Source: Akkermansiaceae bacterium (lineage in GTDB: Bacteria > Verrucomicrobiota > Verrucomicrobiia > Verrucomicrobiales > Akkermansiaceae). From it: 64,000 bases of DNA. The position numbers and the translations under genes were made by a program. Position 1 is the first letter of the stretch, and each line of letters opens with the position of its first letter. The notes under the pieces are model-generated. The model did not search any database. It was not told where the DNA came from and worked only from the letters and a program-made list of their open reading frames with translations. Location of the stretch: NCBI GenBank assembly GCA_019634595.1, contig JAHCBC010000004.1, positions 496,001 through 560,000 of the forward strand. The letters run 5' to 3'. Shown in pieces: positions 30,775-53,346 of this stretch.

Positions 30775-30870
30775 ATTAAAGGGGTGGTTGTCAGTGTTCA
30801 GTTTTCAGAAAGGCATGGATGCGGTCCGGGTTCCGGCTGGAAACCGGAGACCCGAACCTAGCAAGCTTCT

Positions 30871-48295: not shown

Positions 48296-48530
48296 GTTAA
48301 GCGGGATTTCGCAGTGACCGCAGGGTACGCCGGAACGCTCCGGGTTTCCGCGGGGGCGGCTGATTTAGCAGACGAACCCGGTCTGGCAAGTGGGAAATGG
48401 AAAATTTCGGCGATTACTTCGGATTTCTTAAAGGAATCCCCCTCCCTTCCAAGGTTGCTGTCTGGGACGGTCCCTTCTGGACAATCCATTGTGCTCCCTT
48501 AGTTTGGCACGGTCAGCCTCGTTCTATTTC

Positions 48531-49549
<1,019 letters not shown>

Positions 49550-49550
<1 letters not shown>

Positions 49551-50000
49551 AGAATCCAGATTCAAGAACCCAGAATCAAGAAAGAGGCCCTTTTTCACCA
49601 TGAATCACAATTTTGAAAATCTGGAGGTTTGGAAACGTGGATGCAGGTTGGCGATCAACGTCTGTGTCGCGTCCCACAAGTCCCGTGAATTTGCCCTGCG
49701 AGATCAGATCCATCGTTCGGCCATTTCCATTCCTTCAAATATTGCCGAAGGCTCGGAGCGATCCTCAGAAGCAGACTTTTCCCGATTTCTCAGCTATAGC
49801 AAAGGTTCGTGCGGGGAACTCCGTACCCAACTCATGATCCACAGGGAAGTGCAGGGAACTGAAAATCGAACCTTTCAGCAATACCGACATGATGATCGAG
49901 GAAACACGGGAAATTTCCCGGATGCTGAGCGGACTCATAGGCCATTTGAAGCCTCCCACACCGCTGCATCTGGATTCTTGATTCTTGTCTCTTGATTCTC
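49550..50000. repeat. Inverted repeats bounding the first S23-gene module
   Basis: AAGAATCCAGAT (49550-49561) and ATCTGGATTCTT (49968-49979) are exact inverted copies. AGAATCAAGAA (49572-49582) pairs with TTCTTGATTCT (49975-49985) and also nearly with TCTTGATTCT (49990-49999). The left arm begins on the last base of the MoxR stop codon; the right arm ends 6 bp before the DUF58 GTG. The module would fold into a stem with the S23 ORF in its loop. Confidence 0.75.
49600..49981 (+). pseudogene. Four-helix-bundle (S23 / 23S rRNA intervening-sequence-type) protein, frameshifted
   Basis: The first 80 residues or so match the S23 family: FENLEVWKRGCRLAINV, FALRDQIHRSAISIPSNIAE, SEADFSRFLSYSKGSCGELRTQ. 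After about residue 84 the reading frame departs from the family. The neighbouring frame continues as expected (MMIEETREISRMLSGLIGHL) to TGA at 49979-49981. One extra base in GTGCAGGGAACTG near 49850-49860 explains this. As it stands, the frame gives 131 residues with an unrelated tail. S23 proteins form pentameric helical bundles of unknown function. Confidence 0.82.
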
Positions 50001-50005
50001 ACGAA

Positions 50006-50899
50006 GTGAAATACGACTTCCTCGACAACACGCTGCTTTCCCGTCTCGGCTCACTGCCGATCGAGACGCGCGTGCCGATGATGGGCAACGTGGCGGGAAA
50101 GCACCGCTCGCCGCACCGGGGATCGTCGGTCGAGTTCGCGGAATACCGCAAGTATGTGCCGGGAGACGATACCCGGCGACTGGACTGGAAGGCCTACGCG
50201 CGTTCCGACCGGTATTACATCAAGGAGTTCGAGGCGGACACGAACTTGCGGGCCTACTTCGTGGTGGATGCCTCCGGTTCGATGAAGTTTTCCGGCGAAG
50301 CAGGGCCGAAGGTCCAGTATGCGAGGAAAATCGCGGCGTCGCTCGCCTACCTGCTGGTCAATCAAGGCGATGCTGCCGGTCTTTCCATCTGCACGGACAA
50401 GCTGCACCTGGAAGTACCGCCCAGCCGCCGCCCTGCCCATCTGGAGCGTCTTTTCCAGACGCTGTCATCTTTGGAGCCTTCCGGTGAAACGGGCCTCATC
50501 GGCGCGCTGCACACCATCGCGGAAAAGATCGGCCAACGTGCCTTCGTCGTCATCCTTTCCGACCTGTTCACGGATCCGGAGGCGTTCGGCGATGCCCTCC
50601 AGCATCTGCGCTACCGCAAGCATGACATCTCCGTGTTCCACCTGATGGATCCTCTGGAGATCGGTTTCAATTTCGACAGTCCCCGCCGCTTCGTGGACCT
50701 GGAGGATGGCACCGCCCTGGTCGCGGAACCGAATCTCATCGCCGACGAATACAAAACCGCCCTCCGCGATTTCCTCTCCGCAGTCCGGGCCAAGTGCCAT
50801 GATGCGAACGCGGATTATCAATTGGTGACAACGGACACGCCATTGGAGCCGTTGTTGAGGGAGTTCCTCACCGCGCGCATCGTGCGTTCGAAGCACTAA
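50006..50899 (+). CDS. DUF58 domain protein (MoxR partner)
   Basis: A 297-residue protein of the DUF58 family. It has RGSSVEFAEYRKYVPGDD, RRLDWKAYARSDRYYIKEFE and a VWA-like metal site (VVDASGSMKF) followed by VILSDLFTDPEAF. The GTG at 50006 gives the usual MKYDFLDNTLLSRL start; the TTG at 49985 lies in the repeat arm of the S23 module. DUF58 proteins work with MoxR ATPases in envelope or stress functions. Its last two codons and stop (AAG CAC TAA) form the outer end of the second module's left arm. Confidence 0.93.
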   Translation: MKYDFLDNTLLSRLGSLPIETRVPMMGNVAGKHRSPHRGSSVEFAEYRKYVPGDDTRRLDWKAYARSDRYYIKEFEADTNLRAYFVVDASGSMKFSGEAGPKVQYARKIAASLAYLLVNQGDAAGLSICTDKLHLEVPPSRRPAHLERLFQTLSSLEPSGETGLIGALHTIAEKIGQRAFVVILSDLFTDPEAFGDALQHLRYRKHDISVFHLMDPLEIGFNFDSPRRFVDLEDGTALVAEPNLIADEYKTALRDFLSAVRAKCHDANADYQLVTTDTPLEPLLREFLTARIVRSKH

Positions 50900-51347
50900 A
50901 TCTTAAGCACCAAATTCGAAACGAGGAGATGGCCGATGGAGCGGAATATGATCTGGAGGAACGCACGTTCCAGTTCGCGCTCTCCATCCGGCGTTGCATC
51001 GCAGGGAGGAAATGGAACCGGGAGCAATGGACCGATGTCGATCAATTGCTCCGGTCTTCAGGTTCGGTTGCAGCCAACTACATCGAGGCAAATAATGCCG
51101 TCTCGAAACCTGACTTTCTCCTCAGAATCCGGATCTCGAAGAAAGAGGCCAGTGAAACCCGCTTATGGCTAAGACTCTTGGGAGAAACCTCCTCCGACGA
51201 CACTCTGAAACAAACGTTACGCCAGCTCTACCGGGAATCCGACGAATTGTCCCGAATCCTGGCGACCATCCTCAGAAATTCTCAAAAATAGCCGCCGTTT
51301 CTTGCACCCTTCTTCGTTTCGGATTTGGTGCTTAAGATTTAGTGCTT
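50891..51347. repeat. 37-bp inverted repeats bounding the second S23-gene module
   Basis: The left arm is 50891-50927 and the right arm 51311-51347. The arms match at 35 of 37 positions in reverse complement. In RNA the two differences become U-G and G-U pairs, so a 37-bp helix is uninterrupted, extended by a further G-U at 50928/51310. The S23 ORF occupies the loop. The left arm covers the DUF58 stop codon; the right arm ends 7 bp before the BatA start. Confidence 0.92.
50929..51291 (+). CDS. Four-helix-bundle protein (S23 / intervening-sequence family)
   Basis: A 120-residue helical protein. GSVAANYIEANNAVSKPDF, RISKKEASETRLWLRLLGE and ESDELSRILATILRN are the conserved helices of the S23 family first found inside 23S rRNA intervening sequences. 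It is preceded by a good ribosome site (GAGGAG, partly in the repeat arm). It is intact, unlike the copy at 49600-49981, and only distantly similar to it, so the two modules are separate arrivals rather than a recent local duplication. The biochemical function of this family is not established. Confidence 0.9.
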   Translation: MADGAEYDLEERTFQFALSIRRCIAGRKWNREQWTDVDQLLRSSGSVAANYIEANNAVSKPDFLLRIRISKKEASETRLWLRLLGETSSDDTLKQTLRQLYRESDELSRILATILRNSQK

Positions 51348-51354
51348 AATACCC

Positions 51355-53346
51355 GTGCTTTTCCTCTCTCCACTGCTTCTCTGGTTCCTCGCCGCGGCCG
51401 CGATTCCGATCGCGATCCACCTGCTGAACCGCCGCCGCCACAAGACGATCCAGTGGGCGGCGATGCAGTTCCTGCTGAAAGCGACGCGGGAAAGCCGGGG
51501 CAAGAAGAAGCTGCGGCACATCCTGATCCTCACCTGCCGGGCGCTGGGCATCGCGGCACTGGCCATGGCGGCGGCACGGCCGATCGCTTCCAGCCTGATG
51601 GGCTGGGGCGGCGGCACGGTGAACACGGTGGTATTGGTGCTCGACCGCTCGGCTTCGATGGAGTCCAGGCCCGGTGATGGACTCTCACCGCGCCGCCAGC
51701 TTGTGCTCGAGCAGGTGCGCGGCGCGCTGAAGGACATCGGCTCTCCGCGGCTTGTGTTGATCGACTCCGCCAGCGGCAGGCCGCAGGACGTTCCCTCGTC
51801 GGATGTGCTGCCGGAACTCTCGTCCACCGCAGCCACGGACAGCGCGGCGGATTTCCCCTCGTTGCTGGCCAGCGCGGCGGAGTTTCTCTCGGAAACACCG
51901 GGGCGTTCCGAGATCTGGCTGGCGTCCGACCTCCAGTCGTCCAACTGGAAGGCGGACGACGAACGCTGGGCGGCTGCCCGGGCGAGCATCGCCAGCCTCC
52001 CGCAAAAGCCGGCCATCCGGGTGATTTCCCTCTCCGGCTCCACTTCCTCGAACAATGCCCTCCGCCTGCTGGGTTCACGCCGCACGGGAAATGAACTCAT
52101 CCTGGATCTGGAGGTCCTGCGCCCGGAGAATGCACGGGGTACTGCGAACATCCCGCTGACCACCCATCTCGATGGCAGCGGCACCACGGAGACCCTCACC
52201 ATCCCCGGCCAGGCTTTCCGTTTCCAGAAACGCATCGTCCTGCCACCTGACAGCAGCACCGGCCATGGCCACCTTTCGATCCCGGGTGACGGCAACCCGC
52301 GGGACAACGTGGCGTTCTTCGCCTACGGCCCGTCGCGCCCGGTGAAGTCCCTCGTGGTGGGTACTCCCGGAGAAGCGGCGGACTATCTGCTGCTGGCCGC
52401 CGCGCCTCCCGGATTCGGCAGCCAGTCCGCCGGGTTCATCCCGCCCGCGCAAGCCGCGGCGATCTCCACGAATGATCTGGCGGCCATCCTGTGGGCGGCT
52501 CCCTTTCCCACCGGCTCCACCGCGGAGTGGCTCAACCGGTTTCTCACCTCCGGCGGGCAGGTGCTTTTCCTCCCACCCGGCGAGGCATCGTCCGCACCGT
52601 TCCTCGACCTGAAATGGTCGCAACCCACCGAGGCGGAACGCGGAAAATTCCTCATCCTCCGGGACTGGAACCATACGGATGGTCCGCTGCGCGATGGCAT
52701 CGACGGAACCCCGATCCCCGCCGAGCGGCTGAAGGCCATCCGCAGGCAGATCCCGCTCGGCGACGCCGCACCGCTGGCGAAATGGGAGGATGGCGAACCA
52801 TTTCTCTCCCGCCAGGTGGTGGACCGTGGCACGGCGTGGTTCCTCGGTTCGACTCCGGACTACACGTGGTCAAACCTGGGGGACGCGGATGTGCTGCTGC
52901 CAGTGGTCCAGCGCATCGTCACCGCAGGGGCGGATCGTTTTGATGCTTCCTATCTCGGGACGGTGGGCGGTGATGAATCGCGGACGCTGGCCGGGGAGGC
53001 CCGGACCCGGCTGGACCACCATGGCGAGCCGGATCCCGCGAATGCGGCGTATGAGGCAGGGGTCCACCGTCTCGGTTCGCGGCTTCTGGCCATCAACCGC
53101 CCGCTTTCCGAGGACGAGCCGGAAATGCTCACCCGCGAGCAACTCGACGCCGCCCTGGACGGGACCGGCTACACCCTGCTCGACCAGGCGGGCCAAGCGA
53201 GGGAGGCGGACCTTTCCCGGGATCTGTGGCGGCCATTCCTCATCGCCGTGATCTTTTTCCTCATTTCGGAAGCGATCCTGTCGCTGCCCAAGAAGCAACC
53301 GGTTTCCCCGCTGCCGTCCGGTGCGACGAAATCCACTCCAGTCTGA
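51355..53346 (+). CDS. BatA-type membrane protein with VWA-like domain
   Basis: A 663-residue protein. It opens with the BatA N-terminal membrane pair: FLSPLLLWFLAAAAIPIAIH, then LLNRRRHKTIQWAAMQFLL, then ILILTCRALGIAALAMAAAR. A VWA domain follows (VVLVLDRSASMES, SEIWLASDLQSSNW). The remainder is a periplasmic region, ending with a membrane helix (FLIAVIFFLISEAILSL). The GTG start at 51355 is immediately after the S23 module. Bat proteins with MoxR and DUF58 are linked to envelope stress tolerance; the mechanism is not known. Confidence 0.9.
   Translation: MLFLSPLLLWFLAAAAIPIAIHLLNRRRHKTIQWAAMQFLLKATRESRGKKKLRHILILTCRALGIAALAMAAARPIASSLMGWGGGTVNTVVLVLDRSASMESRPGDGLSPRRQLVLEQVRGALKDIGSPRLVLIDSASGRPQDVPSSDVLPELSSTAATDSAADFPSLLASAAEFLSETPGRSEIWLASDLQSSNWKADDERWAAARASIASLPQKPAIRVISLSGSTSSNNALRLLGSRRTGNELILDLEVLRPENARGTANIPLTTHLDGSGTTETLTIPGQAFRFQKRIVLPPDSSTGHGHLSIPGDGNPRDNVAFFAYGPSRPVKSLVVGTPGEAADYLLLAAAPPGFGSQSAGFIPPAQAAAISTNDLAAILWAAPFPTGSTAEWLNRFLTSGGQVLFLPPGEASSAPFLDLKWSQPTEAERGKFLILRDWNHTDGPLRDGIDGTPIPAERLKAIRRQIPLGDAAPLAKWEDGEPFLSRQVVDRGTAWFLGSTPDYTWSNLGDADVLLPVVQRIVTAGADRFDASYLGTVGGDESRTLAGEARTRLDHHGEPDPANAAYEAGVHRLGSRLLAINRPLSEDEPEMLTREQLDAALDGTGYTLLDQAGQAREADLSRDLWRPFLIAVIFFLISEAILSLPKKQPVSPLPSGATKSTPV

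Follow-up and report, generated by a model that had tools for sequence, protein, structure and literature searches.

An S23 gene enclosed in a hairpin at an operon junction suggests a widespread relative of rRNA intervening sequences

Between the DUF58 and BatA-like genes of an Akkermansiaceae bacterium, a small gene of the S23 family is enclosed by two long inverted-repeat arms, and most of the ~175 S23 genes examined sit inside inverted repeats that consist of tandem ~7-nt units, the sequence of which differs among elements. This organisation suggests that the hairpin and its S23 gene form a module which is a widespread, overlooked relative of the intervening sequences (IVSs) of ribosomal RNA. 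IVSs have so far been treated as an rRNA oddity; S23 or 'four helix bundle protein' genes, of no known function, occur widely among bacterial genomes. The explanation regarded here as probable, with moderate confidence, is that of an IVS-type element living in mRNA, not in rRNA. As for its role, a selfish module, or one near-neutral to the operon, is most likely, rather than an operon regulator.

The element between DUF58 and BatA

The window, i.e. the whole stretch of 64,000 nucleotides that was analysed, contains a run of genes with two S23 elements. The features, numbered on the window, are as follows:

48489-49550, plus strand: MoxR-type AAA ATPase gene, the first of the run
49551-49581, plus strand: left arm of the second element, beginning at the base following the MoxR stop codon
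49600-49960 (end approximate), plus strand: second S23 gene, of a different subfamily (PF05635, E 1.2e-26, residues 6-96)
49969-49999, plus strand: right arm of the second element, just 5' of the DUF58 start
50006-50899, plus strand: upstream DUF58 gene (listed ORF from a TTG at 49985; the GTG at 50006 is suggested by relatives)
50891-50927, plus strand: left arm, with heptamer-like units AAGCACT/AAATCTT/AAGCACC/AAATTCG/AAACG, degenerate in this DUF58-BatA copy
50929-51291, plus strand: S23 / four-helix-bundle gene of 120 aa (PF05635, TIGR02436)
51311-51347, plus strand: right arm, the reverse complement of the left arm at 35/37 positions
51355-53346, plus strand: downstream BatA-like gene, with a GTG start

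The arms of the DUF58-BatA element are 37 nt each and lie 383 nt apart, the two positions that are not Watson-Crick being T/G and G/T on the plus strand. An earlier note on this DNA had described arms of 37 bp matching at 35 positions with both exceptions of the G-U type, and the same arms were recovered here around the S23 gene; its comparison with IVS stem-loops carrying S23, placed in an operon, likewise agrees with the arms, the S23 ORF and the DUF58 and BatA flanks. It had also placed the module exactly between the DUF58 stop and the BatA start, which holds for the junction but not for the borders: the outer 9 nt of the left arm (AAGCACTAA) are the final two DUF58 codons plus the stop (50897-50899), and the right arm ends ~7 nt before the BatA GTG at 51355. 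A Shine-Dalgarno-like GAGGAG for S23 lies at the inner end of the left arm. The arms might appeal as copies of host flank, for the AAGCAC at the DUF58 end is complementary to the GTGCTT at the BatA start and the left arm holds the DUF58 stop; such an origin was not clearly seen at MoxR-DUF58 or at other junctions, and is not claimed.

Among the inverted repeats found in 464 kb (the window together with 400 kb from the nearest relative), the DUF58-BatA element ranks third by strength; the two that outscore it are short-spaced and of REP type, and the remaining ones scoring at least 30 all have spacers below 150 nt and are mostly REP-type palindromes. Folded as RNA, the element gives z = -6.9 (sense strand) and -6.7 (opposite strand) relative to shuffled sequences. 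Long inverted repeats necessarily fold far better than shuffles, and because z is nearly equal on both strands, folding alone cannot single out one of them. An Rfam search at the element and a search for PADLOC defence families both gave zero matches, and a strict-threshold scan for tandem arrays over the 464 kb returned zero arrays, because the heptamer units are degenerate.

The S23 ORF matches PF05635 (E 3.6e-13, 50.1 bits with a cut-off of 33.8) and TIGR02436 (70.3 bits, cut-off 24). Modelled by AlphaFold2 from an alignment, the protein has four helices (pLDDT 94.7), and the best solved match of the model is the S23-family protein 2RLD (TM 0.77; sequence E 1.7e-27 with a profile), a five-chain assembly; the fold search also gives Avd and a DGR reverse-transcriptase complex (4DWL, 8UB7), weakly (E ~0.04, TM ~0.6-0.7). 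The dN/dS of S23 is 0.06-0.11 for the DUF58-BatA copy against its orthologues at the same junction, 0.04-0.11 across same-junction copies, and 0.016 in another orthologous pair; S23 is under strong purifying selection.

The second S23 element (49551-49999) lies one gene upstream, between MoxR and DUF58, and its heptamer arms are unlike those at DUF58-BatA. Its S23 gene carries a 2-nt deletion with a frameshift in the last third, whereas the orthologues in relatives are intact. Inverted repeats at comparable spacing surround each of the six S23 genes in the genome, the sequence of each pair being different. One arm family (TTTTCAGTGTTCAGTTTTCAG) is also scattered over the genome in ~17 solo copies, of which 11 lie within a larger repeat beside a REP-like palindrome. 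Such a solo heptamer arm (gtcagtgttcagttttcag), without an S23 gene, is found at 30785-30812 of the window, between two minus-strand genes.

Distribution, address and evolution of S23 elements

Two collections were compared: a family set, with the S23 genes from 60 genomes of the family Akkermansiaceae (Verrucomicrobia), and a wide set of 80 named loci from many phyla (Verrucomicrobia, Bacteroidota, Planctomycetes, Clostridia, Chloroflexi, Cyanobacteria, Nitrospirae, Acidobacteria, candidate phyla and others). The association of S23 with inverted repeats, on which the earlier note had staked its reading, extends well beyond the present locus: most S23 genes elsewhere have them and stand at operon junctions, in sense orientation. 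In the family set, the flanking repeat is stronger than in 95% of 351 control ORFs for 82 of 108 S23 genes. A cross-pair null, in which upstream flanks are paired with the downstream flanks of other S23 genes and which is conservative because arm families are shared, was exceeded at the 99% level by 49/98 genes of the family set and at the 95% level by 61/75 of the wide set.

A period of seven runs through these arms. Matches at lag 7/14/21 amount to 0.56/0.53/0.45 in the left and 0.60/0.57/0.49 in the right arms of the family set, vs 0.29 when shuffled, and to 0.67/0.65/0.59 in the wide set; seven is the best period in 74 of 90 left arms of the family set. Units of 7/14 nt are also seen in the orthologous copies at the DUF58-BatA junction. 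The units vary from element to element, and on the S23 strand the left arm is poor in C (10-14% in both sets). Stop codons in all three frames were considered as the cause of the 7-nt unit, and rejected, many units being without a stop. At one locus (L160), several tandem units resembling the right arm (TTCAATCTTCCCTCTACCCTTTAGAATTTCGTGCTTAAACC...) follow S23.

The address of the elements is constrained. Both neighbours are co-directional with S23 in 84 of the 87 callable cases of the family set (single-side agreement being 91/92 upstream and 87/90 downstream), while the figures for ordinary genes in these genomes are 70% for neighbours and 158/323 (49%) for triples, so that the excess over gene triples has p ~1e-22. 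The bias is present, but weaker, in the wide set (38/49 with both neighbours); here the control from the family genomes was used in place of a first wide-set control (79% same strand), which may count windows inside one gene. For 59 of 75 elements of the family set, the upstream stop ends no more than 15 nt away from where the left arm begins, with a median of -2 nt. In three orthologous copies at an ABC-transporter junction (L161, L163 and L164) the helix starts at the stop codon and reaches the first base of the following ATG. A 23S motif was absent from every S23 locus examined.

As for the arms, covariation was assessed at two junctions, in tests that rest on few sequences: at the ABC-transporter junction, where pairing persists although the arms vary among species, 7 of 38 pairs are changed on both sides (0.27 vs 0.12 shuffled; 0/500 shuffles), and at DUF58-BatA (G000, G111, G126 and G092) 5 of 34 are (6/500 shuffles). 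Either selection for pairing or the templating of one arm by the other could explain such changes.

The earlier note had proposed a comparison with strains lacking the module; close relatives are indeed without the element at the same junctions. The MoxR-DUF58 and DUF58-BatA junctions occur among relatives in filled, empty and remnant forms; both are occupied in several genera, and DUF58-BatA looks like an insertion hot spot. In G036, a genome whose DUF58 is 97% identical, the MoxR-DUF58 junction has kept nothing but a remnant of the right arm; a further site has the two arms with the S23 ORF missing, and yet another is cleanly empty. The backbone of the DUF58 tree is without resolution, junctions of the G036 and G106 type being either pre-insertion or post-deletion states.

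Some further features of these genomes were recorded. Two loci at DUF58-BatA (L147 and L157) hold remnants of nested or tandem S23 elements, in which the left arm is duplicated and a broken first S23 start lies in between. Four others at that junction (L128, L130, L134 and L138, from G066, G062, G119 and G083) carry a different insert, which starts MKTVTAN..AKQQLGQVLDSA and is Phd-antitoxin-like by eye. REP/REPIN-like palindromes (GTAAGGAGGGAGGACACTCCTGTCC) with spacers of 60-140 nt are numerous in G036 (L237-L256).

Explanations at the level of RNA and of DNA

In the explanation preferred here, a stem-loop of ~0.45 kb with an S23 gene and no visible promoter of its own sits in sense at the stop/start junction of operon genes; a sigma-70 scan of the region gave no promoter-like site, which is weak evidence. 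The host operon would transcribe the module as part of itself, since the element is sense-oriented exactly at such a junction. Within the polycistronic mRNA the arms would pair into a ~37-bp duplex that takes in the Shine-Dalgarno-like region of S23 and has the S23 message in its loop. If rRNA IVSs are a guide, this duplex is probably cut by RNase III, a predicted cut that would free the S23 piece and leave the DUF58 and BatA messages on separate RNAs. The S23 protein, of which the solved relative 2RLD forms a five-chain assembly and the fold matches Avd, probably binds the nucleic acid of the element and aids its maintenance or spread.

One argument for this explanation has to be abandoned. 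Selection on pairing in the sense RNA should favour G-U, and from the two G-U pairs the earlier note had concluded that selection acts at the RNA level. Across the arms, G-U and A-C mismatches are equally common, without wobble excess on the sense strand (113:154 in 91 elements of the family set, 90:90 in 64 of the wide set); the argument falls because the 155 elements show no G-U excess, although its absence does not exclude a role of the RNA.

Arms without a wobble signature would also suit a hairpin that acts as DNA, S23 (being Avd-like) or a host factor recognising a cruciform or single-strand hairpin whatever its sequence; the element would then home or transpose to, or be copied at, stop-codon hairpins, and its orientation would reflect the need for operon expression. 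The weak match of the S23 model to Avd and the DGR reverse-transcriptase complex points the same way, as do the solo copies of one arm family scattered through the genome. In the BPP-1 DGR, moreover, homing depends on a hairpin/cruciform that lies at the stop codon of the gene just preceding avd, and it is the structure that is required, whatever the sequence (PMC3240598). The arms at stop codons considered here, conserved in structure and free in sequence, are strikingly similar. The likeness to DGR Avd comprises the four-helix-bundle fold (at a weak score) and a hairpin at the upstream stop with structure prevailing over sequence, but the present hairpin encloses the gene and a linked reverse transcriptase is absent. 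RVT_1 is absent from some element-bearing genomes, G036, G092 and G006 being carriers without a reverse transcriptase domain, and in the source genome it occurs on other contigs or far away (nearest at C4:259640, ~290 kb). Because several carriers lack that domain, membership of the S23 element in the DGRs is not supported by the genomes at hand; spread dependent on a reverse transcriptase from within the genome was rejected on the same ground. For sense-only insertion within operons an RNA-level cause is the simpler account, and arm sequences vary among elements, unlike those of ordinary terminal repeats. On balance, action as DNA is considered rather unlikely, though it is the main rival of the preferred explanation.

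A host-serving regulator, with S23 and helix domesticated to set the ratio of upstream to downstream protein, could be argued from the low dN/dS of S23 (0.04-0.11) and from the occupation of both MoxR-DUF58-BatA junctions in several genera; a function for the host would likewise agree with purifying selection and with long vertical inheritance at one junction. The same junctions are nevertheless empty in close relatives, the MoxR-DUF58 copy is frameshifted in the source genome and lost in G036, and S23 elements occupy many unrelated junctions. Because the module is dispensable and so widely placed, a dedicated regulator becomes less likely, and is held to be quite improbable; nor is the module likely to have a processing role dedicated to the MoxR-DUF58-BatA operon, given that close relatives lack the element and many unrelated junctions carry it. 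Intergenic DNA often holds inverted repeats, so an ordinary intrinsic terminator, an attenuator or a chance repeat around an unrelated small gene might come to mind. Yet the spacer is of ~380 nt with a gene inside, terminator calling gave none at either arm of the DUF58-BatA element, where a T-run is absent, the cross-pair and control-ORF nulls are exceeded, and the arms covary, all of which makes this last idea barely credible.

Known relatives and implications

The IVS-type element in mRNA, as preferred above, has its closest counterpart in the 23S rRNA IVS of Coxiella burnetii, which is 428-444 nt long, has a 28-bp stem and holds an S23 ORF behind tandem heptamers (GACAGAT), is excised by RNase III, and in which S23 is decaying (PMC4990558). 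Elements of both kinds share an S23-family ORF in the loop, a length of ~430-460 nt, a terminal stem of ~28-37 bp, a patchy occurrence, and tandem heptamers on the 5' side, seen here as a set-wide lag-7 periodicity that is degenerate at DUF58-BatA. The present element differs in lying between protein genes of an operon, outside 16S and 23S rRNA, and in its strongly conserved S23, in contrast to the decaying one of Coxiella; RNase III excision, demonstrated in Coxiella, is a prediction for the element described here. REPIN/MITE-type elements are similar in being short, palindromic and dispersed, some with solo arms, but S23 elements have variable arms, carry the S23 ORF and keep a strict sense orientation in operons. 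A full-text search, conducted mostly outside subscription journals, found S23 hairpin elements at operon junctions undescribed.

S23 genes hereby gain a common anatomy and a strict address, namely the stop/start junctions of operons on the sense strand; their arms evolve jointly without a fixed sequence, and close relatives offer natural empty, filled and remnant sites. Thanks to these features, the function of S23 and the spread of IVSs become directly testable. If the preferred explanation is true, many operon transcripts bear a built-in double-stranded cutting site. A more far-reaching proposal, offered tentatively as possible but short of probable, is that of a pan-bacterial class of mobile elements, in which an S23 gene in a heptamer-built hairpin would install itself at the stop codons of operon genes, with arms staying complementary while their sequence turns over freely and an S23 oligomer reading hairpin structure over sequence. 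To this class rRNA IVSs, the solo heptamer repeats of many genomes and perhaps DGR Avd would belong as branches or relics.

S23 elements are also a possible source of unexplained intergenic heptamer repeats. The TAACTGA heptanucleotide repeats, reported from several phyla as intergenic direct repeats upstream of start codons and without a link to S23 (PMC4679880), resemble S23 arms in their 7-nt tandem units, intergenic position upstream of start codons and presence in several phyla, but differ in being direct repeats by description, with neither paired arms nor S23 genes; that the two are linked is only a suggestion. Along the same line, several of the cyanobacterial S23 genes (L205, L228, L230, L232 and L234) have heptamer arms, e.g. 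TCAGTAATCAGTGATCAG in Microcystis (L228), and these arms resemble the known short tandem heptamer repeats of cyanobacteria, a common origin being possible.
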